Assembly: GCA_900473175.1 (NCBI GenBank)
Contig: UCKM01000006.1
Coordinates: forward strand, 1-64,000
Length of the DNA: 64,000 nucleotides
Origin: Hyphomicrobiales bacterium
Lineage (GTDB): Bacteria > Pseudomonadota > Alphaproteobacteria > Rhizobiales > Rhizobiaceae
Direction of reading: 5' to 3'
Shown here: piece by piece, positions 4,448 to 22,327 of the stretch
Position numbering within the stretch: the stretch's first letter is position 1
Layout of the letters: each line of letters begins with the position of its first letter
The notes under the pieces: generated by a model
What the model was told of the DNA's origin: nothing
What the model saw: only the letters and a program-made list of their open reading frames with translations
Database searches by the model: none
Position numbers and translations under genes: made by a program

Positions 4448-4562
4448 CATGTTTACCTGCTCATCTGTGTTGCGGCGAACCATAGAAGATTAGGACGCTT
4501 AAGGCTATTGTCCTCTTGCGCGATGAAGCGACGCGTTCGTTACTTATGCGGGGGTGGTGATA

Positions 4563-5582
4563 ATGGTTCTGAAGGCCGAGTTGCATTGCCATATCGAGGG
4601 CGCCGCTTCCGTGACTCTGGTCGAACGTAAGGCGGCCAAATACGGCGCCGATGTTTCGGGCTTCATACGGGGCGGCAAGTTCGTCTGGCATGATTTCACT
4701 TCGTTCCTCCATGCCTATGACCAGGCATCCATGCTCTTCCGCACGCAAGAAGACTACGCCGATCTCGCCGAAGATTATCTGCTGGCGCTGAGCCGGCAGG
4801 ACTGCATCCATTCGGAAGTGTTCATTTCGACCGACCATGCGCTGAGCGCTGGGCTCGATCCGCAGGCCTATATTGAGGGGTTGGCCGAGGGCATGCGCCG
4901 CGCCAAGGATGCAACCGGCATCGAAGGCCGTCTTATTGCAACGGGCCTACGGCACAAGGGCCCCGACGCGGTGCTGGCAGCCGCGCAATATATCGTCGAC
5001 CATCCGCATCCGCTGGTTACAGGCTTCGGCATGGCGGGCGATGAGCGGATGCATCACCCGAAAGATTTCGCACCCGCCTTCGACCTCGCACGCGATGCGG
5101 GGCTCGGCATAACCGTGCATGCAGGTGAACTTTCAGGCTGGGAAAGCGTTGCCGACGCGCTCGATGCGCTCAAGCCATCGCGCATCGGCCACGGCGTGCG
5201 GGCGATCGAGAATCCCGATTTGGTCAAGCGGTTGGCGGATGAACAAATCCTGCTCGAATGCTGTCCGGGATCGAATATCTCGCTCGGTGTCTATCCGGAT
5301 TTTGGAGCGCATCCCTTCGCTGAGCTTGCGAGGGCTGGCGTTGCTGTGACGCTCAATTCCGACGACCCGCCCTATTTCCATACCGACCTTGCCCGGGAAT
5401 ACGAGATCGCGAAAACTCATTTTGGCTATAACGAGGATATGCTGACCGCGGTGACCGCCACAGCACTCAAGGCCGCGTTTGTCGATGATGAAACGCGCGC
5501 CGCGCTGCTTGCACGGCTTGATGCGGACAAAACTGTGCGCGCTGGCGATGAGCGCTTTGCGGGATCGGTATCGAGCAGCTAA
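4563..5582 (+). CDS. add: Adenosine deaminase family protein
   Basis: A 339-residue metal-dependent deaminase that converts adenosine (or adenine) to inosine (or hypoxanthine). Zinc-site motifs are present: LHCHIEGA (HxH), [14 protein letters not shown] and LNSDDPPYF. The NSDDPxYF form is closer to what I recall of adenine deaminases in this superfamily than to the classical adenosine type, so the exact substrate is open. The ATG at 4563 is preferred; two GTG codons at 4554-4559 are in frame upstream. It sits just upstream of upp and faces the nucleoside operon, consistent with purine salvage. Confidence 0.88.
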
Positions 5583-5614
5583 GATTGCGGTTACTCAGAA
5601 TGAAGGGGATTTCC

Positions 5615-6241
5615 ATGGGCGTGACGATCGTTTCCCATCCGCTTGTCCAGCACAAGCTTACCATCATGCGCGACAAGGACACGTCGACCGCCGGTTTCCG
5701 GCGGTTGCTGAAGGAAATTTCCCTGCTGCTCTGCTATGAAGTGACCCGCGATCTGCAATTGACGACGATCAAGATTCAGACGCCGCTGACGGAAATGGAT
5801 GCCCCGGTTATCGAAGGCAAGAAGCTGGTCTTTGCGTCCATCCTGCGCGCTGGCAACGGGTTGCTGGAGGGCATGCTCGATCTTGTTCCAGCAGCACGCG
5901 TCGCCCATATCGGCCTATATCGTGATCACGAAACGCTGCAGCCGGTCGAATACTATTTCAAGGCGCCCGAAGATATCGTCAACCGGCTCATCATCGTCGT
6001 CGATCCGATGCTTGCGACCGCCAATTCGGCCATTGCTGCGATCCAGAAGCTGAAGGACAGGGGTGCGAGCAATATCCGCTTCCTTTGCCTTCTTGCTGCG
6101 CCCGAGGGAATCGAACGCTTCACCAAGGCGCATCCGGATGTCCAGGTGTTTACCGCCGCCATCGACGATCACCTGAACGAAAAGGGCTATATCGTTCCGG
6201 GGCTTGGCGATGCCGGGGACCGCATGTACGGGACGAAATAG
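5615..6241 (+). CDS. upp: Uracil phosphoribosyltransferase
   Basis: Upp converts uracil and PRPP to UMP. The 208-residue product starts [15 protein letters not shown] and ends [16 protein letters not shown], both family hallmarks. The PRPP loop reads [13 protein letters not shown], where most homologues have ATGGSA, and the base site reads [10 protein letters not shown]. The ATG at 5615 gives the standard N-terminus; upstream in-frame TTG (5585) and ATG (5600) codons are not needed. It follows add by 32 bases on the same strand and converges with deoA, completing salvage of the uracil released by the phosphorylase. Confidence 0.95.
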
Positions 6242-6270
6242 CTTGATGAGCGTGGTTCTGACGCAGACCC

Positions 6271-7587
6271 TTACCCGCCGATACGCCGCAACACCGGGTT
6301 GATAGTGCGGGGTTTACGCTCTGAATACCCATAGGCCTGCTCGATGACACGCACCCCCGCGGCAGCATCATCGTGACTGCGGGCGTGCACGAGAGCCACC
6401 GGCTCGCCCTCATTCATTCTGGCACCGATCGGCTGCAGGGCCGTAATCCCGACCGCGTGGTCGATCGGATCCTGCGGGCGGATACGTCCGCCGCCGAGCG
6501 AGACAATCGCAACGCCAATGGCGCGCGTGTCGATGGACGAGACATAGGCTGTCTGCGGCGCCTTGACTTCGTGCGTCACGGGCGCAACCGGCAGATGATG
6601 ACTGGTACGGGAAACGAAATCTGCGGGTCCGCCAAGCGCTGCCACCATGCGCCCGAAGATTTCGGCAGCCTTGCCGCTGTTCAGGGCTTCACGGGCCTTT
6701 TCCATTGCAACCTTGTGGTTTGGGCAAAGCTTGGCCGAAACCAGCATCTCCGCGACGAGGGCAAGCGTAACGGCTTCTAGTCTTGGATCGCGTTTGTCAC
6801 CGGTCAGGAAGTCAACCGCCACCTTCACCTCGACGGCGTTGCCCGCGGCAAGGGCCAGTGGTTCGTTCATGTCGGTCAGGAGCGCCGTGGTCGTCAGGCC
6901 GGCGCCTTGCGCCACTGCAACGATGCTCTCAGCCAACGCCACCGCATCGCGTGTCCGCGCCATGAATGCGCCATTGCCGGATTTGACGTCGAGCACCAGC
7001 GCGTTGAGCCCGGCTGAGAGCTTCTTTGACAGTATCGAGGCGGTGATCAGCGGGATCGACTCCACCGTCGCCGTCACGTCACGGATGGAGTAGAACCGCT
7101 TATCCGCCGGAGCGAGGTTTGCGGTCTGGCCGATGATGGCACAGCCAACGCCGTGCACCACCCGGCGAAACAGGGCATTGTCCGGCTGGCTGCGATAGCC
7201 CGGAATTGCATCCATTTTGTCGAGCGTCCCGCCGGTGTGGCCAAGCCCCCTGCCGGAGATCATCGGGACGTAGGCGCCACAGGCGGCGGCGATCGGCGCC
7301 AGCATCAGCGAGACGTTGTCGCCCACGCCCCCCGTCGAGTGCTTGTCTACAGCAGGTCCCGGCAGGTCGGACCAATCAAGAATATCGCCGGAATCGCGCA
7401 TGGCGAGCGTCAATGCCACGGCCTCGTCGCGTTTCATGCCATTGAAGAACACTGCCATGGCGAAGGCTGCGACCTGGCCCTCGGTGATCGCACCGGAACT
7501 CATGGCATTGACGAAGGCGGTAATGTCCGCCGCGTCCAGCGTCTGGCCATCGCGCTTGCGGCGAATGATTTCCTGCGGCAGCAGCAT
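6271..7587 (-). CDS. deoA: Thymidine phosphorylase
   Basis: DeoA splits thymidine (and deoxyuridine) with phosphate to free base and deoxyribose-1-phosphate. The family signature DKHSTGGVGDNVS lies at residues 81-93, followed by PMISGRGLGHTGGTLDK, and the full length (438 residues) is normal. The start ATG at 7587 lies 3 bases after the purine nucleoside phosphorylase stop, so the two are translated from one message. It is the last gene of the minus-strand nucleoside uptake and salvage operon. Confidence 0.96.
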   Translation of the reverse strand: MLLPQEIIRRKRDGQTLDAADITAFVNAMSSGAITEGQVAAFAMAVFFNGMKRDEAVALTLAMRDSGDILDWSDLPGPAVDKHSTGGVGDNVSLMLAPIAAACGAYVPMISGRGLGHTGGTLDKMDAIPGYRSQPDNALFRRVVHGVGCAIIGQTANLAPADKRFYSIRDVTATVESIPLITASILSKKLSAGLNALVLDVKSGNGAFMARTRDAVALAESIVAVAQGAGLTTTALLTDMNEPLALAAGNAVEVKVAVDFLTGDKRDPRLEAVTLALVAEMLVSAKLCPNHKVAMEKAREALNSGKAAEIFGRMVAALGGPADFVSRTSHHLPVAPVTHEVKAPQTAYVSSIDTRAIGVAIVSLGGGRIRPQDPIDHAVGITALQPIGARMNEGEPVALVHARSHDDAAAGVRVIEQAYGYSERKPRTINPVLRRIGG

Positions 7588-7590
7588 GAT

Positions 7591-8391
7591 CTAGCCGATC
7601 TCCCGGACCAGAACCCGGATGATCTTCTGCAGGCGTGCACCACCCTTGGGCGCGATATCCTTGGTCTCTTCGTGCGAGAGTTCCGCGCCGGTCATGCCGG
7701 CCCCGTAATTGGTGATGACGGAACAGGCGGCGACACGCAGGCCGAAGAACCGCGCCAATATGACCTCCGGCACGGTGGACATGCCGACGGCATCGGCGCC
7801 GAGGGTGCGCGCCATGCGGATTTCCGCCGGAGTCTCGAAGGACGGGCCGGAAAACCACATATATACGCCGGACGCCAGCTTTTCTCCCGCTTCGCCGGCA
7901 GCAATGACCAGGGCATCCTTGAGTTTCTTGTCATAGGCGGCAGTCATGCCGACAAAGCGTTGGTCGGACGGTTCGCCGATCAGCGGATTGAGGCCGGAAT
8001 AATTGATATGATCGTCGATCAGCATGACGCTGCCGGGGGCAAGGTCGTGGCGTACGGAACCTGCTGCATTGGTCAGGATAAGCATTTCGATGCCAAGGTC
8101 GGCAAGGGCCGCGATGACCGGCCGCATAACCGTGGCATCGCCCTTCTCGTAGTAGTGGGCGCGTCCTGCAAGCATCAGAACCGGCTTGCCCGACAGATAG
8201 CCCGCGACCACTTCTCCGGCATGGCCCGATACGCCGCTATGCGGAAAACCGGGAAGGTCGGCATAAGGGATGCGGATCGCGTCTTCCACCGCGTCGACCA
8301 GGGAGCCGAGACCTGACCCCAGGACCAGCGCGACACGCGGCATGAGGCCGTTGAGCTTCTTGATGAGAGCGCCGGTTGCCGCTGCGATCAT
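7591..8391 (-). CDS. Purine-nucleoside phosphorylase (trimeric, PunA/XapA type)
   Basis: A 266-residue phosphorylase with the trimeric PNP signatures: LGSGLG (24-29, phosphate site), GRAHYYE, TNAAGS, GPSFETPAEIRM, GMSTVPE and SVITNYGAG. The Asn in the last motif is the residue that reads 6-oxopurines in mammalian-type PNPs, so inosine and guanosine are likely substrates rather than adenosine. Upstream deamination of adenosine by the neighbouring add product would feed it. It lies between cdd and deoA. The gap upstream (8392-8458) holds a small CCCC/GGGG hairpin. Confidence 0.93.
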   Translation of the reverse strand: MIAAATGALIKKLNGLMPRVALVLGSGLGSLVDAVEDAIRIPYADLPGFPHSGVSGHAGEVVAGYLSGKPVLMLAGRAHYYEKGDATVMRPVIAALADLGIEMLILTNAAGSVRHDLAPGSVMLIDDHINYSGLNPLIGEPSDQRFVGMTAAYDKKLKDALVIAAGEAGEKLASGVYMWFSGPSFETPAEIRMARTLGADAVGMSTVPEVILARFFGLRVAACSVITNYGAGMTGAELSHEETKDIAPKGGARLQKIIRVLVREIG

Positions 8392-8458
8392 ACGGCACCT
8401 TTGTCTGGCAGTGGTGAACTTTCTTCAGTCCCCTCTGGAAGGGGGTGATTTACTGCCG

Positions 8459-8872
8459 TCATCGTTTGGCTCCTCCCAATACGTCCGCCTCGAAGCCGTG
8501 GGGGAATATCTCCTTCATCGTTAGCGTTTCAACGATCCCGTCATTGTCACAAAGGTGCAGGAGCGCATCCGGGCCGGCAAATTCCGCCAGGCGCTGGCGG
8601 CAGCCGCCGCAGGGCGTGCACCTGGCTTTCTTTTCCGCAACGACGGCGATCTCGGTAATTGTACCACCCCCACCCATGACGAAGTGCGACAGGGCCGTCG
8701 TCTCAGCGCACCAGCCCTCCGGATAGGAAATGACCTCGATGTTGCAGCCGGAATAAATGCGCCCGTCGCTGGTGCGGATTGCCGCGCCCACCGGAAATTG
8801 CGAATAGGGCGAGTGGGTTTTCTGCATCGCCGCATAGGCGGCATCGAACAGGTCGCGGCTCTTTTCCATCAT
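8459..8872 (-). CDS. cdd: Cytidine deaminase
   Basis: A 137-residue zinc enzyme that deaminates cytidine and deoxycytidine to (deoxy)uridine. The zinc and proton-shuttle motif is CAE (C55, E57), the other ligands are in PCGGC (C88, C91), and the substrate loop is GCNIEV. The three-Cys pattern is that of the small tetrameric Cdd. Its ATG at 8872 overlaps the TGA of the upstream permease in an ATGA junction, implying translational coupling. A longer open frame upstream is only a shadow of the permease gene. Confidence 0.95.
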   Translation of the reverse strand: MMEKSRDLFDAAYAAMQKTHSPYSQFPVGAAIRTSDGRIYSGCNIEVISYPEGWCAETTALSHFVMGGGGTITEIAVVAEKKARCTPCGGCRQRLAEFAGPDALLHLCDNDGIVETLTMKEIFPHGFEADVLGGAKR

Positions 8873-9843
8873 CTTTCCTTCACATAGGCAACACCGCCTG
8901 CCTTGGGCGGGATCGCCTTGCCGATGAAGCCGGCGAGCAGCACGATGGTAAGAATATAGGGCAGAGCCTGCATCAATTGAACCGGCACCTCGCCAATCAA
9001 TGGGATCGGATGGCCCTGCATCCGGATCGCCACGGCGTCGAGGAAGCCGAACAGCAGACAGGCGAACATCGCCTGCACCGGGCGCCATTTGGCAAAGATC
9101 AGCGCTGCTAGCGCGATATACCCCTTGCCGGCGGTCATGTCCTTGACGAAGCCCGCTCCCTGGGCCGTCGCCAGATACGCACCCGCTACCCCGCAAAGCA
9201 CACCGCAGCAAACGACCGCACGATAGCGCAGCCATGGCACGGAAACGCCGGCCGTATCGACAGCTGCGGGATTCTCACCAACTGCGCGCAGGCGCAGGCC
9301 GAAACGCGTACGGTAGAGGACCCACCACGTAAAGGGAACCAGCAGGAAGGCGAGATAGACAAGGATCGAATGACCCGAAATCAGCTCGTAATAGATCGGG
9401 CCGATGATCGGAACGTCGCGCATCGCGTCCGCGCCGGGAAGATTGATGGGATTGAACCGCGCCTCATTCGGCAGCGATGGCGTGCGCCCGCCCTGGCTGA
9501 ACCAGGCCTGCCCCAGGATGACGGTCGTGCCGGCGGCGATGAAGTTGATGGCAACGCCCGAGACGATCTGGTTGCCGCGATGGGTGATGGAGGCAAAACC
9601 ATGCACCAGACCGAGCGCGACGGAGACAAGAACCGCGGCCAGCAGCCCCGCATAGGCCGAACCGGTCCAGGTAGCGGCGGCACCGGCCGCGAAGGCGCCC
9701 GCCAGCATCTTGCCCTCAAGCCCGATGTCGAAAATACCGGATCGCTCGGAATAGAGCCCGGCGAGGCAGGCGAGCAGAAGCGGCACCGAAAGGCGGATGG
9801 TCGAATCAAACAACTGCAGGATGGTCGTCAAGTATTCCATCAC
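8869..9843 (-). CDS. Nucleoside ABC transporter permease (second membrane subunit)
   Basis: A 324-residue polytopic membrane protein of the BPD_transp_2 type. It carries the segment ACLAGLYSERSGIFDIGLEG, which is characteristic of the permease of BMP-type (NupC/YufQ) nucleoside importers, and about eight hydrophobic helices. It pairs with the permease encoded directly upstream (4-base overlap) and with the double-ABC ATPase at 11530-13062. The same operon encodes nucleoside-degrading enzymes, which supports nucleosides as the cargo. Confidence 0.93.
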   Translation of the reverse strand: MMEYLTTILQLFDSTIRLSVPLLLACLAGLYSERSGIFDIGLEGKMLAGAFAAGAAATWTGSAYAGLLAAVLVSVALGLVHGFASITHRGNQIVSGVAINFIAAGTTVILGQAWFSQGGRTPSLPNEARFNPINLPGADAMRDVPIIGPIYYELISGHSILVYLAFLLVPFTWWVLYRTRFGLRLRAVGENPAAVDTAGVSVPWLRYRAVVCCGVLCGVAGAYLATAQGAGFVKDMTAGKGYIALAALIFAKWRPVQAMFACLLFGFLDAVAIRMQGHPIPLIGEVPVQLMQALPYILTIVLLAGFIGKAIPPKAGGVAYVKER

Positions 9844-10985
9844 TGGCCTCCCCCCGTCGCGACTGCCGCAGCCGCCTCACGCTTGCCACGGCCGACCCGC
9901 TGGAAAATACGCTGCAATGACGGCCGGAACATATGCTCGAGCGCGCCGGCAAAGAGAATGACCAGGCCCTGAATGATGACGATCATGTCGCGCGATATGT
10001 TTGGCATATCGAAAGCGATCTCGGCCCCGCCTTGATAGAGCATGCCAAAGAGGATGGCGGCGAGTACGATGCCGGCGGGATGCGAGCGCCCCATCAGCGC
10101 CACGGCGATGCCGACAAAGCCGGCTCCGGCGACGAAATCGAGCTGCATGCGGTGTTGCGCACCCATGATCGGATTGAGCGCCATCATCCCCGCGAGCGCT
10201 CCCGATATCATCATCGTGATGATAATGATCCGCAGTTCGCTGATACCGGCATAGCGCGCGGCCTTGGGACTGAAGCCCATGGTACGAATCTCATAACCGA
10301 GCTTGGTGCGCCAGATCAGCAGCCAAACCGCAAATGCCGCCACCAGCGCCAGCAGAAAACTGATGTTGAGCGGAGCCGAACGCATGTTGAACCCGACGAT
10401 ATTGAGGAGCCAGCCAAGTCCTGGCAGTTGTCCGCCGTCGCCGAAGACCCGCGTTTCGGGTGCCTGGCTGCCGAGCGGCTTGAGCACGCCCACAAGAAGA
10501 TAGACCATGATGCTGGCGGCGATGAAATTGAACATGATGGTGGTGATAACCACGTGCGAGCCGCGTTTCGCCTGCAGCCACGCCGGGATCAGTGCCCACA
10601 GAGCCCCGACCAGCGCCGATGCGATGATTGCCAAGGGAAAGACCAGCCACCACGGCAGAACATTGCCAAGCCCGAGGCCGACCATCGTCACGCCAAGACC
10701 GCCAATATAGGCTTGGCCCTCGCCGCCAATGTTGAACAGGCCGCAATGGAAGGCGACGGCGACGCAAAGCCCGGTAAAGATGAAATTGGTTGCGTAATAG
10801 AGCGTATAGCCGACACCATCGCCGGAACCGAACGCGCCTTTGATCATCAAAACCGCCGCATCGATGGGGCTTTCGCCAACAAGCAGAACAACGAGACCGG
10901 CCACGAAGAAGGCCACGATCAGATTGATCAGCGGCAGGAGGCCATAGTCAGCCCAGGCGGGCAATTTGGCGAAGGGCTGGCTCAT
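9840..10985 (-). CDS. Nucleoside ABC transporter permease (first membrane subunit)
   Basis: A 381-residue permease of the BPD_transp_2 family with about ten hydrophobic segments. The motif CGLFNIGGEGQAYIGGLG is the conserved permease signature of NupB/YufP-like nucleoside importers. Its start overlaps the stop of the isochorismatase-like gene by 4 bases and its stop overlaps the next permease by 4 bases. Such ATGA junctions run through the whole transporter part of this operon. Confidence 0.93.
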   Translation of the reverse strand: MSQPFAKLPAWADYGLLPLINLIVAFFVAGLVVLLVGESPIDAAVLMIKGAFGSGDGVGYTLYYATNFIFTGLCVAVAFHCGLFNIGGEGQAYIGGLGVTMVGLGLGNVLPWWLVFPLAIIASALVGALWALIPAWLQAKRGSHVVITTIMFNFIAASIMVYLLVGVLKPLGSQAPETRVFGDGGQLPGLGWLLNIVGFNMRSAPLNISFLLALVAAFAVWLLIWRTKLGYEIRTMGFSPKAARYAGISELRIIIITMMISGALAGMMALNPIMGAQHRMQLDFVAGAGFVGIAVALMGRSHPAGIVLAAILFGMLYQGGAEIAFDMPNISRDMIVIIQGLVILFAGALEHMFRPSLQRIFQRVGRGKREAAAAVATGGGQ

Positions 10986-11533
10986 GGCAAGGTCTCGATT
11001 ATCGCGTCTGAGGTCGAAATGCGGGCATATTCGCCATCAAGGATGGCAAGCGTCAAAGCATGGACATCCTCGGCGGTCCATCGCTTGCCGCAGTGATCCT
11101 TGCGGTCGATGCTCGCCACTGCATCCTTCGCCACGGTTACTTCGAAACCAAGGTTGGCCGCCATGCGCACTGTGGCGTCGACTGAATTCTCAAGGAGTAC
11201 GCCAGTAACCACAAGGCTGCGCACCTGCAGTTCATCGAGCACGTCCATCAGATCCGTACCGATAAACGCATTGTTGGTGCGCTTGTCGATGACGGGCTCG
11301 CCCATCTGCGGCGCCACTTCCGCCTTGAATTCGTTACCTTTAGTGCCCGGCCTGTAGGGCGATCGGGGATCAGTGGAATCGTGGCGGACGTGAACCACCG
11401 GCAATCGGCGTTCGCGCCAGGCTTCAAGCAGCCGAGCGATCGCAGCCTCGGCCTGAGGTTGGCCACGCCTGCCCCATTTCGGATCATCGATGGCGTTTTG
11501 CACATCTATGACAAGGAGTGCCTGCGTCGTCAT
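10982..11533 (-). CDS. Isochorismatase-like cysteine hydrolase family protein with Cys-to-Ser change
   Basis: The 183-residue Rossmann-like protein matches the isochorismatase-like hydrolase family: VIDVQN with Asp10, DKRTNNAF with Lys84, and the nucleophile region GVLLENSVDATVRMA. In active members the residue before VxxT is Cys; here it is Ser117 (codon TCA). The Asp and Lys of the triad are kept. The gene is wedged by 4-base overlaps between the ATPase and the first permease of the nucleoside importer, so it is made together with them. A hydrolase acting on a nucleobase- or ureide-like compound is conceivable, but the lost Cys makes activity uncertain. Confidence 0.82.
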   Translation of the reverse strand: MTTQALLVIDVQNAIDDPKWGRRGQPQAEAAIARLLEAWRERRLPVVHVRHDSTDPRSPYRPGTKGNEFKAEVAPQMGEPVIDKRTNNAFIGTDLMDVLDELQVRSLVVTGVLLENSVDATVRMAANLGFEVTVAKDAVASIDRKDHCGKRWTAEDVHALTLAILDGEYARISTSDAIIETLP

Positions 11534-13062
11534 TCCGCCGCTTCCCTCTGTTCGACGCCGGCCATAAGCAAGCCAAGCTCGCCCTCGCTGGCGTCGGTAT
11601 CACGCTCGCCGACGATGCGTCCAGCGAACATCACCAGGATGCGGTCCGACAGCGAGCGGATCTCATCAAGTTCCACCGAAACAAGCAGAACGGCCTTGCC
11701 CGCATCGCGCATCTCGATGATGCGCTTGTGAATGAACTCAATGGCTCCGACATCGACGCCGCGCGTCGGTTGACCAATGATGAGCACGCCGGGATCACGC
11801 TCCATCTCGCGCGCCAGCACGATCTTCTGCTGGTTGCCACCGGAGAAATTCGCCGTTTTCAGGCGTGGGTCGCCGGGACGGATATCGTACTTCTCGATCT
11901 TCTTGCGTGCGTCGGCCTTGATTGCATCGAGATCGAGGAATGGCCCGTTAAGATAGAGGGGATCATCGTGATAGCCGAGGATCGAGTTTTCATATTCCTC
12001 GAATGCGAGCACCAGCCCCATGTGATGGCGGTCTTCCGGCACATGGGCGAGACCGCGATCGCGCAACTCCCCGGGATCGGCCGCGCCGGTAATATCGATA
12101 ACCTGGCCATCAAGTAGAATGCGGCCAGAGACGGCTGTGCGGATGCCGGCGATGGTTTCGATGAGTTGCGACTGGCCATTGCCCGCCACACCGGCAATGC
12201 CGACAATCTCGCCGCCGCGAACGTTGAAGGATGCATCGTCCACCATCACCACGCCGCGGCCGTCGCGCACGGTGAGGTTTTCAACGGAAAGCTTGATCTC
12301 ACCCGGTTTCGCCTCGCCCTTTTGTACCCGCAGCAGCACGCGGCGGCCGACCATGAGCTCAGCGAGTTCTTCGACGGTCGTTTCCGCGGTCTTGCGCGTC
12401 GCAACGACCGCGCCCTGGCGCATGACCGAGACATTGTCGGTGACCGCCATGATTTCACGCAGCTTGTGGGTAATAAGGACGATCGTTTTGCCCTGATCCT
12501 TCAACTGCTCAAGGATACGGAACAGATGATCGGCCTCGGGCGGCGTCAGAACACCGGTCGGCTCGTCGAGCACCAGGATTTCGGCGCCGCGATAGAGGGC
12601 TTTGAGGATCTCCACCCGCTGCTGCAGCCCGACGGGCAGCTCTTCGATCAGCGCATCCGGATCGACATCGAGCTGATATTCGCGCTCCAGCCGCTTCAAT
12701 TCGGCGCGCGCCTTGGAGATGCCGTTCTTGAGGAGCGGCGCGCCCTCGACACCGAGCATGACGTTCTCGAGCACCGTGAAATTTTCAACGAGCATGAAAT
12801 GCTGATGCACCATGCCGATGCCGAGCGCGATGGCGGCGTTGGGGTCCGGGATTTTGACGGTGGCGCCGTTGATGCGAATTTCGCCGCTATCGGCTTGGTA
12901 GAAACCGTAGAGGATCGACATCAGCGTCGACTTGCCAGCACCATTTTCGCCGATGATACCGTGTATCGTGCCCTTTTCGACACGCAGATGGATATCGCGA
13001 TTGGCATGGACAGCGCCAAAACGCTTGTCGATTCCAGTAAGTTCGATTGCCGGTTCGGCCAT
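11530..13062 (-). CDS. Nucleoside ABC transporter ATP-binding protein (double ABC domain)
   Basis: A 510-residue ATPase with two fused ABC modules, as in the RbsA/NupA class. The first has a full Walker A (GENGAGKST), an atypical signature ELPVGLQQRVEILKALYRG and Walker B LVLDEPT. The second has a degenerate Walker A (GVAGNGQSQL), signature FSGGNQQK and a modified Walker B (LIIGQPTRGVDVG). This asymmetry is normal for the class. It is the first gene of the minus-strand operon (ATPase, isochorismatase-like, two permeases, cdd, PNP, deoA). The promoter should lie in 13063-13232. Confidence 0.95.
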   Translation of the reverse strand: MAEPAIELTGIDKRFGAVHANRDIHLRVEKGTIHGIIGENGAGKSTLMSILYGFYQADSGEIRINGATVKIPDPNAAIALGIGMVHQHFMLVENFTVLENVMLGVEGAPLLKNGISKARAELKRLEREYQLDVDPDALIEELPVGLQQRVEILKALYRGAEILVLDEPTGVLTPPEADHLFRILEQLKDQGKTIVLITHKLREIMAVTDNVSVMRQGAVVATRKTAETTVEELAELMVGRRVLLRVQKGEAKPGEIKLSVENLTVRDGRGVVMVDDASFNVRGGEIVGIAGVAGNGQSQLIETIAGIRTAVSGRILLDGQVIDITGAADPGELRDRGLAHVPEDRHHMGLVLAFEEYENSILGYHDDPLYLNGPFLDLDAIKADARKKIEKYDIRPGDPRLKTANFSGGNQQKIVLAREMERDPGVLIIGQPTRGVDVGAIEFIHKRIIEMRDAGKAVLLVSVELDEIRSLSDRILVMFAGRIVGERDTDASEGELGLLMAGVEQREAAE

Positions 13063-13232
13063 ATCCCCATCCGCTGTTATGCAGCTTTTGTCGTCTTTTC
13101 GCGTTTCGACCCTAACACGGCATTTTTTTCTTTCCAGTCAAGAAACGCAAGATTCAACAGGCATCAGGGTTGCGAGCTTGAACCTTGACCCGGCGAGGGC
13201 TAAGAGAGCCGCACGGCAAAGGGAGACGAGCA

Positions 13233-13445
13233 ATGACCGCGGAAAGTACCGAGCGATTGACCCGCCTCGAGATTCTCGTGACCGAGCAGGAAAAGACCAT
13301 CGAGGAACTTTCCGAACAGATTGCCGAGCAGTGGAAGGTGATCGAAGGTATGCGCCGCAAGCTCGATGCATTGACCGACCGGTTTCTGGTTCTGGAAGAG
13401 CAGACAGCACCCGATGTTCCTGTGACCAAGCCACCGCATTATTGA
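13233..13445 (+). CDS. slyX: SlyX family coiled-coil protein
   Basis: A 70-residue acidic protein made almost entirely of one heptad-rich coiled coil (LTRLEILVTEQEKTIEELSE, then QIAEQWKVIEGMRRKLDAL), ending in PPHY, as SlyX proteins do. The ATG at 13233 follows GGGAGA at a suitable distance. Its biochemical role is unknown. It lies between the nucleoside ATPase (divergent) and the LysE exporter (convergent). Confidence 0.85.
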   Translation: MTAESTERLTRLEILVTEQEKTIEELSEQIAEQWKVIEGMRRKLDALTDRFLVLEEQTAPDVPVTKPPHY

Positions 13446-13472
13446 TCAAAATCTGGCCTGTGTTGTGATCAA
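13442..13472. terminator. Inverted repeat between convergent slyX and lysE-type gene
   Basis: TTGATCA (13442-13448) and TGATCAA (13466-13472) form 7-bp arms around a 17-base spacer. The repeat covers the stop codons of both convergent genes, so it may act as a weak two-way terminator. There is no clear T tract. Confidence 0.4.
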
Positions 13473-14110
13473 GCTCTCGCCTTGATCGCCTCGAGCATCA
13501 ATTTCAATCCGAGCGCTCCCATGACCGCGCCCGCTCCGCGGTCGATCCACGTTTTCAAACGCATGTAGACTTGCCGGGCCCGGGATCCGGAAAAAGCGAG
13601 CGCCACGACCGCATACCAACCCGCCTCGACGCAAAAAAGCATGGGCGGCAGGGCAAGGAGCAGCCAAAGCGGTGGCGACGCAGGCATCAGCGCTGCGAAA
13701 ATGCTGGCATAGACGATCGAGGTTTTGGGATTGCTGAGCTGCGTCATCAAGCCGAGAACAAATGCACGAGCGACGGAGATGCCGCGGGTTTGCCCGCTTG
13801 TCCCCGACAGCCTGAGCGGTTCCGACGCACCGCGCCAGATCTTTACAGCCAGATAGATCAGATAGGCACCGCCAAGCAGCTTCAGCACAACGTAGAGCCA
13901 GTCGAACTGGATCAGGAGTGCCGTCAGCCCAAGCACAGCCAGCGCGGCAAAGAAAGCGCCTCCCACGCCCATCCCGAGCGCGGCAGCCAGGCCATGGCTG
14001 CGCGACGATGCGACGGCGATGCGGGAAACGAGAACGAAACTTGGGCCGGGGCTGATCGCACCGATTGCGATGGCGGCGAGAATACTGAGAAGGACGGCGA
14101 ACGCGCTCAT
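13469..14110 (-). CDS. LysE/RhtB family amino-acid exporter
   Basis: A 213-residue inner-membrane protein with about six hydrophobic helices. The N-terminal pattern AIGAISPGPSFVLVSRIA is the LysE/RhtB signature, and a GLMTQLSNPKTSIVY segment follows. It should export an amino acid or a derivative (homoserine, threonine, lysine and similar are known in the family); the substrate is not predictable. It interrupts the expected adjacency between the BMP-type binding protein gene and the nucleoside ABC operon, on the same strand as both. Confidence 0.9.
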   Translation of the reverse strand: MSAFAVLLSILAAIAIGAISPGPSFVLVSRIAVASSRSHGLAAALGMGVGGAFFAALAVLGLTALLIQFDWLYVVLKLLGGAYLIYLAVKIWRGASEPLRLSGTSGQTRGISVARAFVLGLMTQLSNPKTSIVYASIFAALMPASPPLWLLLALPPMLFCVEAGWYAVVALAFSGSRARQVYMRLKTWIDRGAGAVMGALGLKLMLEAIKARA

Positions 14111-16757: not shown

Positions 16758-16848
16758 GGAGAGGTGGCCGAGTGGTTGAAGGCGCACGCCTGGAAAGTGT
16801 GTTTACGTCAAAAGCGTAACGCGGGTTCGAATCCCGCTCTCTCCGCCA
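16758..16848 (+). tRNA. tRNA-Ser (anticodon GGA)
   Basis: The 91-base sequence folds as a class II tRNA. The acceptor stem is GGAGAGG/TCTCTCC with one G-U pair, the anticodon arm is CACGC-CTGGAAA-GTGTG with anticodon GGA, there is a long variable arm, the T arm is GCGGGTTCGAATCCCGC, and the gene encodes CCA. It reads UCC and UCU. Its 3' end is the crossover site of the downstream integrative element, and the tRNA remains intact. Confidence 0.96.
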
Positions 16849-16849
16849 G
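16832..16849 (+). repeat. attL core, 3' end of tRNA-Ser
   Basis: TCCCGCTCTCTCCGCCAG spans part of the T arm, the acceptor strand, CCA and one further base. It is identical to 20651-20668. Confidence 0.88.
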
Positions 16850-16894
16850 CCATCTTTTATCACATAAAATGTAATGATTTCAATGTCTTTGGTG

Positions 16895-16932
16895 GGTGGC
16901 CCAGATTGCTGGTCCCCCATGGTGGTCCCCCA
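16895..16932 (+). repeat. Arm-type direct repeats near attL of element 1
   Basis: Three nonamers lie in a row: GGTGGCCCA (16895-16903), GGTCCCCCA (16911-16919) and GGTCCCCCA (16924-16932). Two further copies sit next to the integrase at the other end (20566-20587). Paired direct repeats near both att sites are typical of binding sites for the N-terminal domain of tyrosine integrases. Confidence 0.65.
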
Positions 16933-17037
16933 AAATGCGCCTTGAAGCACCCAAGGTCACTCTAATTATTAGTGGACCTAGACCGCATCTTAATGTCATC
17001 TTGCTTCATAACTGAGCGGAAAGCGGGGGCTTCCACT

Positions 17038-17325
17038 ATGAGCAGGGCTGTTGAAATTTCTCTGAGACTAGCATTGCCTGTGAGCATCCTGGTAGCGGCT
17101 GTGACCGTGGCGGTGGTGTTCCGTTATGAGGTGCACCGCTTGGGGGTCATTGACCTCGTGCAGGACCGTTGGGCTGGCACAGTGTCAGCTTGCCGCATCC
17201 GTGGCCTAGGCTACAGCGATTGCTATCCATATCTTTCGGCGGGAATGGTGAGTGTCCCGAAGCCCGTCAAACAGATGATTTCGGATGAGGAGTTCAACAG
17301 GCTGCTAGACAACGCAAAGCCGTGA
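17038..17325 (+). CDS. Small membrane protein of element 1, unknown
   Basis: A 95-residue protein with one strong hydrophobic helix near the N-terminus (about residues 9-28) and a short soluble domain containing two Cys (VSACRIRGLGYSDCYPYL). The ATG at 17038 is preferred over an upstream GTG at 16972 because it places the membrane helix at the start. It is 37 bases upstream of the HEPN-like gene on the same strand and could be its partner. I recognise no family. Confidence 0.5.
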   Translation: MSRAVEISLRLALPVSILVAAVTVAVVFRYEVHRLGVIDLVQDRWAGTVSACRIRGLGYSDCYPYLSAGMVSVPKPVKQMISDEEFNRLLDNAKP

Positions 17326-17362
17326 AGCTAACTGGGCGGCTGTCCGAAAGCTGGAGCGGCAA

Positions 17363-17935
17363 ATGCCCGAAGTTTCACGCGAAGCACTTGAATCAAATCG
17401 TCAACTTCAAGCCCTTGTGAAGTGGGGCCACGTGATGCTCTGCGTGAGCAATGCTGACCACTATCTAAACAAGATGGAGACGCTGCGGATAGAGGCGACG
17501 ATGGACAATGTGCTGGAGATAGATGGCCTAGTACTGATATTCGTCGTCACCTATGCCCGTATGTTTACCGACGCATCTAACGGGTTTCCCAAGCTGGATA
17601 GAAACGTGGTCTATCGCGATGCTGCCCTGAGGGAGACCCATGACCGCATCATGGAAATGAGACATACTCGCTATGCGCATGAGGGGGGAAGCGAGGAGAT
17701 TGAATACAGCCTGACATTGGAGTTGGAAAACGACACCCTAACGGTCAAGCCAGAAATCGCGATCATCATCCCCGGCTATGAGTTCCCCAAATTCCGAACG
17801 CTGATTAACGAGCTACTGAAATACGTCTACGAGAAAATCCACAGGACCGTGGAGCGGGCTTCGAGGGAGCTTGGCATTAAGGTGCACTTCCCGAAAGGCC
17901 CGCCACCAGCGCATCACTTGAAGAACGATGGGTGA
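17363..17935 (+). CDS. Putative HEPN-type protein (element 1 cargo)
   Basis: A 190-residue mostly helical protein. The segment THDRIMEMRHTRYAHEGG (from residue 92) resembles the RNxxxAH motif of HEPN domains: Arg100 and His106 are spaced R-x5-H and sit at the end of a helix. HEPN proteins often act as RNases in toxin or abortive-infection systems; that role is an inference here. The ATG follows a GGAGCGG site. Base composition is lower in GC than the flanking chromosome. The gene faces the resolvase across 12 bases. Confidence 0.6.
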   Translation: MPEVSREALESNRQLQALVKWGHVMLCVSNADHYLNKMETLRIEATMDNVLEIDGLVLIFVVTYARMFTDASNGFPKLDRNVVYRDAALRETHDRIMEMRHTRYAHEGGSEEIEYSLTLELENDTLTVKPEIAIIIPGYEFPKFRTLINELLKYVYEKIHRTVERASRELGIKVHFPKGPPPAHHLKNDG

Positions 17936-17947
17936 TCCGCGATGGGT

Positions 17948-18523
17948 TCAGGCTTTGGGCGTCTCATCGGCAATGATCCGAAAGACGCTAGCGCGGCTGA
18001 TGCCCAATGCTTTCACGATGTCACTTGCTGATACGCCCTCAGCCCGCAACCTCATCACCTCCTCAGCCTTGCGCCGCGCGGTGGGTTGGCGTCCAGCGTA
18101 CTTGCCCTCTGCCTTGGCCTTGGCGATGCCTTCACGTTGACGCTCAAGCATCAGCTCCCGCTCAAACTCTGCGATGGACCCCAAGAGATTGAGCATCAGC
18201 TTTCCGGTAGGCGTGGAGGTGTCGAGGTTCATTGCGAGGATGCGTAGACCCACTCCCTTCCTCTTCAGCGTTTCCGTGATGGTCACCAAGTCCGCCACTG
18301 AGCGGGCAAGGCGGTCCAACTTGGTGACAATCAGTATGTCCCCTTCACGCACCCACTCAAGGGCAGCATCAAGCTGGGGCCGCGCGGTGGCCACGGAGGA
18401 AATCTCTTCACGGAATATCTTGGTGCATCCCGCTTGGTCCAGGTCGCGAAGCTGAGCCTCAAGCCCGGCCTTCTGGTCTGTGGTGGATGTGCGGGCGTAG
18501 CCGATAAGGACAGGTGTGCTCAC
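17948..18523 (-). CDS. Serine recombinase (resolvase/invertase family)
   Basis: A 191-residue small serine recombinase. The N-terminal catalytic domain has IGYARTST with Ser13 as nucleophile, and the conserved DILIVTKLDRLARS and GSIAEFERELMLERQREGIAKA segments follow. A helix-turn-helix (VSASDIVKALGISRASVFRI) ends the protein. It starts in a 4-base overlap with the small gene at 18520-18786, so the two form an operon. No inverted gix-like pair was noticed nearby. A truncated homologue lies at 21709-21933 in the neighbouring element. Confidence 0.93.
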   Translation of the reverse strand: MSTPVLIGYARTSTTDQKAGLEAQLRDLDQAGCTKIFREEISSVATARPQLDAALEWVREGDILIVTKLDRLARSVADLVTITETLKRKGVGLRILAMNLDTSTPTGKLMLNLLGSIAEFERELMLERQREGIAKAKAEGKYAGRQPTARRKAEEVMRLRAEGVSASDIVKALGISRASVFRIIADETPKA

Positions 18524-18786
18524 TGGTACATCTCCTCTTCGCCATCAGCCCATGCCCCGATGTGGATCACTGAGCCATCCTTGAACGTTGCGCTGTAGCC
18601 TGTGCAGTACTCATAGGACCACACGGCAATTTCGAACGGCCACGCCTTGGCCATCTCCCACTGTACCTCGTAGATGTTGAGGTCATTGCTGTGGCGGGAC
18701 AGGATCGGGGTGAAGCGTGCGAGGTCGGCAATCGTCACGGCACTGGGCCATGCGCTGCCTGTGTTGTCTACGGCTATCTTGGCCAT
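18520..18786 (-). CDS. Hypothetical 88-residue protein encoded before the resolvase
   Basis: The protein (MAKIAVDNTGSAWPSAVTIA onward) is acidic and rich in aromatic residues, with no signal peptide or membrane helix. I do not recognise it. Its stop overlaps the resolvase start by 4 bases, so it is translated from the same message. The region in front carries several GTGAGAC repeats. Confidence 0.55.
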   Translation of the reverse strand: MAKIAVDNTGSAWPSAVTIADLARFTPILSRHSNDLNIYEVQWEMAKAWPFEIAVWSYEYCTGYSATFKDGSVIHIGAWADGEEEMYQ

Positions 18787-18813
18787 CTCGGTTTGGTCTC
18801 CAGTTAAGTTTAT

Positions 18814-18919
18814 GTGAGACCATTATGTGAGACTCTGCCAGCAAATGTCAAGAGACTATTCTTGTGAGACTCCTTTAGGCCGCTTTGGGGAGACTCACAT
18901 GGGCTTGCCCTAGTGAGAC
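18814..18919. repeat. Cluster of GTGAGAC direct repeats
   Basis: GTGAGAC occurs at 18814-18820, 18827-18833, 18864-18870 and 18913-18919, with a related inverted AGACTCAC near 18891. The first two are spaced 13 bases apart. They lie in the only non-coding stretch of element 1 beside the divergent ends of the resolvase operon and the tailspike remnant. They could be repressor or replication-initiator sites. Confidence 0.55.
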
Positions 18920-18929
18920 TGCGCGGTGG

Positions 18930-20139
18930 CTAATATCTGAATCGAGGGGTCAGCCTGATGTTGACAGGCTTCAAATCCACCGGAAGGGTGATCTCAACGG
19001 TTGACCCATCGGCTGAGGTTATCGACAGTCCATCGGGCATCCGCCCAGATGAGCGTGTCGTCAAACGACATGATATCGCGGAAGTGCCAGAACGAGCATC
19101 CACGCTCCAAATACATTGAGACCGTGTTCGCCTGGAAGAAGCAGTCAACTACGCGGGACTGACCCGTCCACTTTGAGTAGATGGCTCGTTCAAACCCGAA
19201 GAAGAAGCAGTTGTACACCCGGAGATAGGTGTTGGCCGCGTTATCATCAAAGCCCATGAACTGGATGCCGTAGGAACCAACGGTCTTTGTCAGCCCATTA
19301 AGGATCAGCATCAAGCCATCAAAGGTGACCACACTTGGCTGTTTGCCTGTTGTGCGAGCATACTTGAAGAGCGGCTTGGCTGTGGTGAACATGCGAAGCT
19401 CAACAGTCCGCTGACCCGGCCCTGTAAACCGCATGTTCTTCTCAAGGGGGATGTTGATGGTGTCAGTGAACTTGTAGGACCCCGAAATGCGAGACGGGAA
19501 GTGGAGCGTATCCCGGTCCTTCATCACGTTCACAGCAGCTTGGATGGCCGTGGTGCAGTCCGTGGTGCCATCGTCAAGTGCTCCGAACCATGGAGCCACC
19601 AGGGGACCCACGAAGCTGCGGACCCACACGTACAGGGCGTTTTGGGTCGATGTGACGTAGATACCTTCTGCGGTGTCTGCTGTCCGCTGTGTGGCCTCTG
19701 CGGCGGTCAGGCTGGAGATAAGGCGCGGAGCAAACTGCCCATTACGGCCACCCCCATCACCTAGGTTGTGAATGGCATCTTGCAAATCAGCGATGATACC
19801 GAAGGGGATAGCCACTGGGTCCAGTCTGCCAAATGGAACATAGGTCTTCGACCCATCCTCCTTCTCGGTGACCAGCGAGTAGGGTTGCCAGCCGGTAGCC
19901 ATGAGCTGCTGCCGTTGCTTGAAGTCTCTGGGGCCTCCCCCTGTAATAGACCCATTGGACACCATGAAGGCTGCGGTGCCCATAAAGAGGGACCCCATGC
20001 CCATTTGACCTATGGCTACTGCTGTAATCGCTGCCTTCGCTACTGCGTCCTTTGAGGTCGCAATCGTGAAGACGTTGTGGAGGAGGTTGTTGACCCCATT
20101 CCACGGCTTGAAGACAGGCGTTGGGACCGCACCCTGCAC
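18930..20139 (-). pseudogene. Chimeric phage remnant: virion-protein end joined to a frameshifted tailspike
   Basis: The open frame (20139 down to 18994, 381 codons) joins two unrelated phage proteins. About the first 120 residues (VAKAAITAVAIGQMGMGSLF, then SITGGGPRDFKQRQQLMATG) look like the C-terminal part of a large internal or polyvalent virion protein of podoviruses. From near residue 125 on (YVWVRSFVGPLVAPWFGALD, then a pectate-lyase-like beta-helix) it is a tailspike. Near 19035 the frame shifts: the continuation DGSTVEITLPVDLKPVNIRL to 18930 lies in another frame. Two deletions plus a frameshift make this a relic, even though most of it is still open. Confidence 0.7.
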
Positions 20140-20588
20140 CGCTTGGTTGCCTTGTAGGCTATGAAGGCGTCCAGGTGGTGGTCCAGAGGCGTAGAGCGAC
20201 CAGAGGCAAGGTCCGCAAATGCCTTTGCTCGTTCATAGCCGTGCTTGGTCTCAATCTGCTCAGCTCGAACGCCAAGCCAGTACTGCTTAGTGTCCCCATC
20301 GTCATCGGACAGGCGTAGGAGCATTGCTTCCGCGTCTATGGGGTCTCTGGTTGCGAGGGCTCTTTCAGCTTGCGCTAGAATGCCCTTCATGCGCTCCACA
20401 ACGGCCCACTTGCGGGTGTTGGCCTCCTTTAAGTCTGCTGTGTGGAGAGGGTGTTTGAGCTTAGTTCGTCCCACTACGGTCCTCAGGCGAACAGGAACCT
20501 TGACCACCACACGCCACTGCTGGCCATGCCATTCCAAGAATTGTCTAGTGCTCGCCAAGATGTCTAGTCCCCCACGCTGGTCCCCCAT
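20040..20588 (-). pseudogene. int: Tyrosine integrase, N-terminal fragment only
   Basis: The first about 149 residues (RQFLEWHGQQWRVVVKVPV, HPLHTADLKEANTRKWAVVE, YKATK) match the N-terminal and core-binding regions of phage integrases. The reading then runs into the virion-protein fragment in the wrong frame and stops at 20040. The C-terminal catalytic domain with the R-H-x-x-R-Y residues is gone. The start at 20588 overlaps the arm-type repeats; a TTG about 30 bases inside (before ASTRQF) may be the true start. Its position next to the right att repeat is standard for an integrase gene. Confidence 0.8.
20566..20587. repeat. Arm-type direct repeats near attR of element 1
   Basis: AGTCCCCCA (20566-20574) and GGTCCCCCA (20579-20587) match the nonamers at 16911-16932 beside the other att site and overlap the integrase start. 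Confidence 0.6.
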
Positions 20589-20650
20589 ATTCCATACGTA
20601 AGGGTCTGAAAATCAAGTAAATAAGGGGGTTTTACGTGCGGGGCAGAGTT

Positions 20651-20668
20651 TCCCGCTCTCTCCGCCAG
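20651..20668 (+). repeat. attR of element 1 and likely attL of element 2
   Basis: This is a second exact copy of the 18-bp tRNA-Ser 3' end. Because arm-like GGTGCCCCA repeats also lie on its right side, it appears to be the junction between two tandemly integrated elements. Confidence 0.85.
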
Positions 20669-20713
20669 GTATTTTTTGCTTCATAAATGATAATCATTTC
20701 AACATCTTATTAC

Positions 20714-20751
20714 GGTGCCCCATTTGTTCGGTGCCCCATATTGGTGCCCCA
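20714..20751 (+). repeat. Arm-type direct repeats of element 2
   Basis: GGTGCCCCA is repeated exactly at 20714-20722, 20730-20738 and 20743-20751, in the position equivalent to the GGTCCCCCA repeats of element 1. Confidence 0.65.
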
Positions 20752-20838
20752 AAAAAGCACCGTTTGTGGCCAAATGACATTGAGCTATCCTCGTTACACG
20801 ACTCGGCATCCTGTTGAGTTATTGCCCAAGGACGATCG

Positions 20839-21693
20839 ATGGACGACGAATTGCAGCGAAGGAAACAACTTACGTTCGAGCAAGCCGAAGGTTTCGCGGA
20901 GTTGCCAAGACAGCTTCGGCGGGACGAGATGCCCAAATCTCTTAGGGCAAAACTGTTCGATGCGATCAATCGTACCGTCGAATACAGGATGGAAAAACAG
21001 AAACTATCGCATTACCTGCCGACGGGCTGGGACAATGCTTTCAGGACTTTGTGGGTTGATAGACTGGGAGACCTCAGTCCGGCCTTCGATATTAGCAAAC
21101 AACGAAATTTCACACGTTTGCAGCAATTATTCTCTGAAAGTAAGCACTACGAGGTTTACGGAATTGTCCAACAGCTTATTCGGTCTGCCCGAGACACAGC
21201 CTTTACGGCCAGAGTAGAAAGAATTCTAGCCGAAGAACACAGCGCTTTTCGGCTTGTTGACGGGGATACGCTGGTGCCCTTTGCATCTGAGCGCGATGCC
21301 GAAACCGTGCTTAACTCCTTGTCAGATATGGAACGTGCCGGATTCAAAGGTGCCCGCCAGCACCTTAAGGAAGCCGCCACTAGTCTCTCAGCAGGCAATT
21401 TTGCAGATAGCATTAGAGAAAGCATCCATTCCGTAGAGGCTGTTGTCCGCAGTCTCACCGGTGAGGCCAGTTTGGCGAAAGCATTAAGCGTGCTAAACGG
21501 CAGGCGTGCCATGCACGAGGCCTTCAGGCAGAGCCTGCTAAAACTCTATGGTTTCAGTAGTGATGAGAAAGGGATTCGTCACCCACTGATCGACTCAGAA
21601 GACGCGGCGGTCACGGAGCAAGATGCGATTTTCATTCTCGGCGTTTGTTCAGGATTCAATTCGTATTTCACTAACACGTTTCATGGCAAATAA
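20839..21693 (+). CDS. AbiJ-like protein (AbiJ N-terminal domain plus HEPN)
   Basis: A 284-residue protein with two parts. Residues 12-60 (FEQAEGFAELPRQLRRDEMP onward) look like an AbiJ N-terminal domain. Residues 165-280 look like a HEPN domain of the AbiJ kind: NFADSIRESIHSVEAVVRSL, LYGFSSDEKGIRHPLID (Arg247-His248), and a closing helix ILGVCSGFNSYF. AbiJ proteins are linked to abortive infection against phage. The ATG follows an AAGGA site. It is the only intact gene in element 2 and is likely its defence cargo. The assignment rests on remembered family patterns. Confidence 0.7.
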   Translation: MDDELQRRKQLTFEQAEGFAELPRQLRRDEMPKSLRAKLFDAINRTVEYRMEKQKLSHYLPTGWDNAFRTLWVDRLGDLSPAFDISKQRNFTRLQQLFSESKHYEVYGIVQQLIRSARDTAFTARVERILAEEHSAFRLVDGDTLVPFASERDAETVLNSLSDMERAGFKGARQHLKEAATSLSAGNFADSIRESIHSVEAVVRSLTGEASLAKALSVLNGRRAMHEAFRQSLLKLYGFSSDEKGIRHPLIDSEDAAVTEQDAIFILGVCSGFNSYFTNTFHGK

Positions 21694-21708
21694 TGGGTTG
21701 TCGACGCC

Positions 21709-21933
21709 TCAACCCTCCGCCACAATACGAAAGTAGCTCGCTCTGCTAATCCCCAAAGCTTTCACAATGTCATTTGCAGACTGACCCTCAGCCCTTAGCC
21801 TCAGCACCTCCTGAGCCTTGCGTCTAGCCGTAGGTTGCTTGCCCTCTGTCCTGGCCTTGGCGATGCCCTCACGTTGACGCTCAAGCATCAGCGCCCGCTC
21901 AAATTCTGCGATAGAGCCCAATGGATTTAGCAT
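21709..21933 (-). pseudogene. Truncated serine resolvase, C-terminal part
   Basis: Seventy-four codons match the C-terminal third of the resolvase at 17948-18523 (GSIAEFERALMLERQREGIA and the DNA-binding NDIVKALGISRASYFRI). Relative to that protein a YAGR tetrapeptide is missing and the catalytic domain with its Ser is absent. A stop codon lies immediately upstream in frame. It is a relic that shows common ancestry of the two tandem elements. Confidence 0.85.
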
Positions 21934-22030
21934 CAGCTACCTGAACGCGTTCCAAAAATGGTTTCGGCAAAAGAACCGGCGACCGCTTACGCCGGGCAAG
22001 GCTTATTGCGTTCATTGCAAAGACGTCCAT

Positions 22031-22138
22031 TCCGCCTACGACAAGTGCCGACGTTGGCTTGTCAAACAGCATGATGGTGGGCTACAGACCCAGCGCCCGA
22101 GCGATCGCGACCCGTTGCTGCTGGCGTTCCGGAAAGCT
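22031..22138 (-). pseudogene. Fragment of an amino-acid-type ABC transporter ATPase
   Basis: The reading SFPERQQQRVAIARALGL, then an in-frame TAG, then PTIMLFDKPTSALVVGGMDV is recognisable as the signature-to-Walker B stretch of a GlnQ-like ATPase. The signature is damaged (SFPERQ for LSGGQ), Asp-Lys replaces Asp-Glu in Walker B, and a stop interrupts it. Nothing else of the gene is visible. The remaining parts of 21934-22327 hold no gene that I can see. Confidence 0.7.
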
Positions 22139-22327
22139 CTGCCGGCACGCATGGCAAACTACCAGCGACGTGCTCTTGCTCGATGGCGCAGCAACACGCG
22201 GGGCTTTCACTGATCTGTCATGGCTGGCCCATGCGCGAGCAATAGAGCAAGGTGATTGCAGCACTCGCCGAATGGCTGTGCGATCCTCAACGCCGGAGAG
22301 ACGCCTGATCGGCCTTAACTCTATCTT

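Follow-up and report, generated by a model that had tools for sequence, protein, structure and literature searches.

Does a gene for a HEPN-type protein that faces a serine resolvase form a defence system with it, or do the two only share a mobile element? The question is raised by contig UCKM01000006.1 of a Hyphomicrobiales bacterium, whose first 64,000 nucleotides (the window) contain two tandem elements 3' of a tRNA-Ser(GGA) gene, each with a plus-strand gene facing a convergent serine resolvase. A first-pass annotation had seen in this repeated arrangement a recurring cargo module, possibly abortive-infection defence with a resolvase for copy or dimer control. Our analysis points to another reading: these are probably decayed integrative elements of tRNA-Ser genes that carry a resolvase with a putative res site and a swappable cargo slot, often filled with defence genes. 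The features on which this reading depends are the following.

16758–16848, plus strand: tRNA-Ser(GGA) gene (ARAGORN), the integration target; its 3' end is the left attachment site (attL) of element 1
16832–16935, no strand: attL core and GGTCCCCCA repeats, likely integrase arm sites; direct repeat with 20651–20754, 72% identical
17363–17935, plus strand: HEPN1, an AbiU2-like HEPN candidate of 190 aa with an RHTRYAH motif; phrog_8440 (unknown function), 6.5e-8
17948–18523, minus strand: intact serine resolvase, 191 aa; Pfam Resolvase (PF00239) 8.3e-45, phrog_125 5.7e-64
18817–18921, minus strand: candidate res site, conserved upstream of the resolvase in six related elements and the viral contig L004
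20137–20588, minus strand: integrase remnant, first ~150 aa (DUF6538); Pfam 4.2e-10
20651–20754, no strand: attachment (att) copy at the junction of the two elements, in which the tRNA end recurs; arm repeats GGTGCCCCA
20839–21693, plus strand: HEPN2, an AbiJ_NTD4 protein (PDC-S32) of 284 aa; Pfam, PADLOC
21709–21940, minus strand: second resolvase, a C-terminal remnant whose N-terminus and upstream region are lost; 84% identical to residues 108–186 of the intact one

The layout is established. Element 1 extends from the tRNA-Ser end to the point near 20651 where that end recurs, and element 2 begins at ~20651 and is broken off at ~21940, its left ~1.3 kb being all that remains. The facing genes are 12 bp apart in element 1 and 15 bp apart in element 2, and the coordinates (17363–18523 and 20839–21940) confirm the gene order and orientation that the first-pass annotation had described for both elements. 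Its reading of the second resolvase as a remnant also holds, and the matching stretch contains one TAG. Both elements are decayed, and the integrase of element 1 is reduced to its first ~150 aa beside phage gene fragments. Identity between the two elements falls at ~16940 and resumes at ~17970; thus the element ends are common and the middles differ, with homology ending at the slot edges around unrelated cargo. Arm-type repeats are found at 16899–16932, 20554–20587, and 20718–20751, and because their sequence differs between element 1 and element 2, the two integrases seem to have had different specificities.

The integrase remnant is 51–62% identical to integrases of 438–460 aa from five genomes. 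Intact relatives of the elements, 6.4–13.1 kb in size, are located at tRNA-Ser genes in Mesorhizobium, Nitratireductor and kin (eight near-family host elements). All eight have a DUF6538-type integrase, truncated in one case, and a tRNA-Ser at the far end, and in all eight a serine recombinase is encoded on the same strand as the integrase (in M. xinjiangense judged by eye only). In six of them this is a resolvase of the window's subfamily (73–86% identity). The element family and the co-occurrence of integrase and resolvase within it are likewise established.

What occupies the slot was surveyed by way of the tRNA-adjacent gene of ten elements, the eight near-family ones and the two in the window. 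In five of the ten this gene has an abortive-infection (Abi) or other defence annotation, some of them weak. In addition to the AbiU2-like HEPN1 and the AbiJ-type HEPN2, these are an AbiJ_NTD4 gene in M. loti (4.2e-12 by our own profile; Pfam 0.01 and PDC-S32 0.002, both weak and the former short of the Pfam cut-off), a DUF2806 gene in M. norvegicum (6.3e-31, plus an Abi_alpha match under the cut-off), and a PDC-S42 gene in N. luteus (1.6e-37). Elsewhere in the elements there are Ymh HEPN genes in N. luteus and M. xinjiangense, a DUF4145 HEPN gene in M. loti scoring just at the cut-off, a PARIS AriAB-like protein in M. norvegicum (1.7e-54), an Mrr-like enzyme slightly under the cut-off, and a weak nucleoside deoxyribosyltransferase match. 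Cargo families outside defence include a sensor kinase, an alpha/beta hydrolase, and an outer membrane protein barrel, the last being, judging by sequence, the tRNA-side gene at locus L103. The earlier proposal that a cargo slot exists in which genes are swapped is therefore borne out by unrelated, often abortive-infection-type cargo between homologous ends. HEPN and Abi-type genes do recur as it had suggested, but other genes recur there too.

The assignment of the two cargo genes differs in strength. HEPN2 matches AbiJ_NTD4 (7.1e-11, 43.2 bits) above the cut-off of 34 for this AbiJ N-terminal domain, and PADLOC PDC-S32 (5.2e-52) across residues 9–280 of 284, so that the AbiJ-like gene predicted for element 2 is confirmed; there is also a weak Hypoth_Ymh match (0.0086). 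An alignment of five family members, one of them partial, has R247 and H226 invariant but without the R-x4-6-H spacing expected in the C-terminal domain of AbiJ. HEPN1 itself matched no HEPN model in the family-profile searches. In its family, however, R100 and H106 are invariant in all nine aligned members (consensus RNKRYAH, R-x5-H), and HEPN_AbiU2 weakly matches two of the nine, HEPN1 not being among them (best E 0.0039). The RHTRYAH motif noted earlier is thus backed by its conserved residues, whereas a HEPN model match is confined to these weak hits in relatives, and the sequences suggest only weakly that HEPN1 is an AbiU2-type HEPN. The two protein sequences are not related to each other (BLASTP, E 0.32; hhalign, probability 0.1), as had been noticed before. 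Relatives of HEPN1 were found in two further genomes of the family (three of 199 including its own) and in eight plasmid records, where the neighbours in the seven hits viewed include restriction enzymes, AbiEi/AbiEii, and a SIR2 protein. At one locus (L187:6100-9755, by eye) four genes share a strand: first a SIR2-like gene, then a serine recombinase (35% identity to that of the window), a HEPN1 relative, and one more gene.

The intact resolvase has both domains expected of such an enzyme, with a helix-turn-helix (PF02796, 1.9e-8) beside the PF00239 domain. Its start is overlapped by a small open reading frame (ORF).

18520–18786, minus strand: ORF of 88 aa that overlaps the start of the resolvase and is probably in its operon; phrog_31325, 0.0065

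Upstream of both, the candidate res site of ~105 bp consists of a 28-bp palindrome (18892–18919) and three more GTCTCAC half-sites at 18814–18870. GTGAGAC is present in six copies in the window, four of them inside 106 bp. A promoter-like TTGACA-18-CATAAT (18851–18822, 11 of 12 positions matching) lies within the site; over the whole region the promoter scan gave three sites compared to 2.9 in shuffled sequences, i.e. no excess. The window, M. soli, M. loti, and M. norvegicum have exactly the same palindrome; identity among their resolvase genes is 73–81%. A site profile trained on seven sequences (six elements and L004, leaving out M. soli) finds the site in all seven elements that retain the region, including the untrained M. 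soli (1.6e-20), and in the relatives with this resolvase subfamily it is located upstream of the resolvase or of small ORFs preceding it. Among 51 viral loci with resolvase relatives five match the profile at E ≤0.01, each time upstream of the resolvase: L004, which was in the training set, L014 (3.5e-7), L005, L018, and L022. The conservation of the site is established, and with its 28-bp palindrome this predicted site is new here. Tn3-type res sites typically have a 28-bp crossover site plus extra half-sites over the gene's own promoter. The site described here resembles those of Tn3 and gamma-delta in having a crossover-like 28-bp palindrome and half-sites upstream of a resolvase, overlapping a promoter-like sequence; the likeness is one of layout. 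It thus looks like a res and like the target of the resolvase. Scanning 24 sources for the 28-bp sequence at ≤8 mismatches gave one full site per locus, the reverse-strand matches being the palindrome itself. A single res-like site per locus over a promoter-like sequence favours the resolution of dimers or tandem copies and disfavours inversion, and the suggestion that the resolvase serves dimer control is plausible from this site. Two genomes of the same genus encode resolvase relatives (L304, 63%; L305, 60%) with a similar downstream gene in both, and the latter lies, by eye, near restriction-modification-type genes.

Several observations weigh against decayed elements with a resolvase and a defence slot. 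Two of the eight near-family elements have another recombinase, and these two are also without a match to the site profile. In the six relatives with this resolvase the slot varies from ~1.1 to 9 kb, and the gene after the resolvase is co-directional with it. Decayed tandem copies can't demonstrate mobility. The AlphaFold models of HEPN1 and HEPN2, built from single sequences, are too poor (mean predicted local distance difference test scores of 44.6 and 40.0) to speak for or against a HEPN fold, and the far relatives (16 loci) did not match any of the three HEPN profiles built here. In five of the ten surveyed elements the tRNA-side gene is without defence annotation, and that of M. norvegicum has no PADLOC match. 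Control stretches next to other integrases matched 150 PADLOC models, compared to 82 in the cargo set, mainly methyltransferases. Defence cargo as such is therefore not special to these elements and no enrichment is claimed.

The phage genes in element 1 could also mean that the elements are the remains of full-size T7-like temperate prophages, with the HEPN genes as morons at their ends and the resolvase as the phage's own.

18994–20139, minus strand: a T7-like internal virion protein and a tail spike of the pectate-lyase type, both fragmentary and joined together; phrog_6651 1.2e-12, phrog_2234 2.7e-6

Element 1 has retained these two pieces, whose best phage matches are Pelagibacter podophages, and in the same genome a related tail spike is encoded in another island at a tRNA-Ser gene. 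The viral contig L004 encodes a resolvase of 88% identity that has the same site and is followed by a convergent TIR-like gene (PADLOC TIR effector, 4.6e-4); the gene preceding the resolvase is, judged by eye from its sequence, presumably a T7-like tail fibre. Besides element 1, internal virion protein genes, whole (~1,180–1,270 aa) or in pieces, are present in M. soli, a Rhizobiaceae metagenome-assembled genome, M. xinjiangense (a piece), and the viral record L164. However, the eight host elements with a close integrase measure just 6.4–13.1 kb, and among the matches listed (25 of 70 PHROG families, 67 cargo ORFs) the internal virion protein, with three members, is the sole named virion part, where a T7-like prophage would be expected to bring capsid, portal, terminase, and RNA polymerase genes. 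In addition, the 54.8-kb record of L004 has no match to integrase profile A1. Based on this phage-link evidence, including L004 without the element integrase, satellite-like elements with phage borrowings are preferred with modest confidence to plain prophage remnants, which we regard as unlikely. It is a tentative idea, and a rather doubtful one in its full form, that the elements represent an undescribed phage-satellite-like family of Rhizobiales, which would parasitise T7-like phages, bring their own 1,200-aa ejection protein in several members, be kept monomeric by the resolvase and its res, and swap HEPN and Abi genes in the tRNA-side slot.

Large T7-like internal virion protein genes were also seen at L089:7225-11001, L096:641-4441, and L164:3499-7026, and a piece at L121:11711-13534. 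These loci are inside or close to elements with an integrase, and the matches listed for them include no further named virion gene (for L164 by eye). The second island of the window's genome (L185, G000:C18:40000-55000, positions 4147–14101) is at a tRNA-Ser (CGA) gene and has apparently another integrase; its tail spike is 78% identical at the DNA level to the fragment in element 1.

Far less probable is that HEPN gene and resolvase are one functional system in which the recombinase or its site controls the toxin. Convergent pairs 7–15 bp apart are present in three loci, two of them with HEPN candidates, and the Ymh HEPN genes of N. luteus and M. xinjiangense are divergent from a serine recombinase at 142 and 199 bp. 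A recombinase was also found within 1 kb of two of four HEPN2 relatives identified by similarity and, directly adjacent, of one of two genomic HEPN1 relatives; two of these three recombinases are only 26–35% identical to the window's, and one sits in an apparent element with its own integrase (L188, by eye). To judge the pairing more generally, 24 AbiJ_NTD4 loci (the window's own excluded) and 16 Ymh loci from 297 genomes of the order were compared up to ~1.5 kb on each side with 30 TIR_2 and 30 Mrr_cat loci from the same genomes. A serine recombinase lies within this distance in 1/24, 0/16, 1/30, and 2/30 cases, respectively, so that only 1 of 40 HEPN loci has one this close compared to 3 of 60 other defence loci. 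A specific HEPN-resolvase module, as first supposed, is not supported by these numbers. The neighbours of resolvase homologues, for which the first-pass annotation had expected consistency, are largely inconsistent: the convergent layout is found in three of nine compared loci with this resolvase subfamily (both window elements and L004, where the partner is TIR-like), and in the remaining six the next gene is co-directional with the resolvase. In the seven of eight plasmid hits of HEPN1 that were viewed no resolvase is annotated adjacent to the HEPN1 relative, the plasmid annotation being incomplete, and on its side away from the cargo gene the resolvase is preceded by a conserved site and a promoter-like sequence of its own. 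This is most simply explained by small integrative elements carrying both serine recombinases and HEPN genes. Because HEPN genes are rarely next to a serine recombinase and other cargo recurs, the pair in the window looks like a cargo slot rather than a HEPN-resolvase system. It is hardly conceivable that the recombinase acts as a DNA invertase switching the tail spike gene beside it: the best PHROG match is indeed called 'DNA invertase' and tail genes are located upstream of the recombinase in element 1 and L004, but no second copy of the site was found in the 24 sources scanned, and none of the six near-family elements that have this resolvase was seen to have a tail gene next to it.

Both window elements would accordingly in life have been members of a 6–13 kb family inserting at the 3' end of tRNA-Ser genes, with the integrase (DUF6538-type N-terminus) placed at the far end. 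The co-oriented serine resolvase and the putative res just upstream of its operon would keep the element in monomeric form when it is excised or multimeric. The region from the tRNA-side att to the 3' end of the resolvase would be the slot in which different genes, often for defence, are swapped, here the AbiU2-like HEPN gene and the AbiJ_NTD4 gene. HEPN1 and HEPN2 would most likely be RNA-cleaving abortive-infection toxins acting against phages or rival elements, and the resolvase probably plays no part in this activity. The role of the site as a res, dimer resolution by the resolvase, a defensive function of the cargo, and movement of the elements with helper phages are all inferences. What appeared as a two-gene system could thus become a testable rule, by which genes between the tRNA-side att and this resolvase are anti-phage candidates, and the 28-bp site and the integrase offer handles for locating such slots in Mesorhizobium and kin.

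Another gene of element 1 lies on the tRNA side of HEPN1.

17038–17325, plus strand: small one-helix membrane protein, 95 aa from ATG, 37 bp upstream of HEPN1

With a GTG start this ORF begins at 16972; its hydrophobic segment has a mean hydropathy of 2.34, and family searches gave no match at E ≤0.25. Directly past the break of element 2, 106 bp (21939–22044) match, with 88% identity, a gene from another kind of element, one located 3' of tRNA-Ser(GGA) in a genome of the same genus (G514, L301). Therefore, a third element kind may once have been present here. The adjoining 22042–22140 has many matches across the genus and is, by eye, a remnant of the signature region of an ABC transporter ATPase. 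In a further genome (G500, L303, ~5564–5618) similarity to the window does not stop at the tRNA-Ser end but continues for ~55 bp within the att arm region, and another element of this kind may therefore be located there; in the 5.6 kb examined, L303 has no integrase, resolvase, or HEPN match. Similar proteins of ~430–450 aa were seen by eye at L103:13593-14900, L104:16572-17933, and L164:9493-10788, with what we take to be DNA-polymerase-A-like motifs; the one at L103 has no Pfam match. At L103 and L104 a cysteine-rich protein precedes it, and a like kind is seen in L101 and L102.

HEPN proteins have been described as abortive-infection effectors, AbiJ and AbiU2 included (PMC3710099). As far as the accessible part of that paper goes, HEPN2 is like AbiJ-NTD4 in having another domain after NTD4; conserved catalytic residues are listed there for AbiJ, whereas the five HEPN2-family sequences have no invariant R-x4-6-H. 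HEPN1 shares with the AbiU2-type HEPN (PF18734), to the extent covered by the same part, the weak profile match of its relatives and the invariant R-x5-H, but is itself under detection.

Judging by titles and abstract openings of open-licence papers, no published description of this element family was found, and a literature search for phage satellites in Rhizobi/Mesorhizobium yielded only what is, by its title, a general review. P4-like satellites have psu, sid, and delta genes and a P2-type helper. These three names are absent among the cargo families listed, no search having been aimed at them. Swappable defence slots are known from P2-like phages and P4-like satellites (PMC9122126), and the likeness, on the portion of that paper available, is that in small integrative elements unrelated antiviral systems including HEPN interchange in a fixed slot. 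The P4 slot is, however, described there between psu and int in Enterobacteria, whereas the slot in the window extends from the tRNA-side att to the resolvase, away from the integrase, in Rhizobiales. Similarly, the phage-inducible chromosomal minimalist islands (PICMIs; PMC10803314, accessible in part) are small satellite-like islands carrying anti-viral cargo, but they have int, alpA, and a primase and are located beside fis, whereas the elements described here reside in tRNA-Ser genes.

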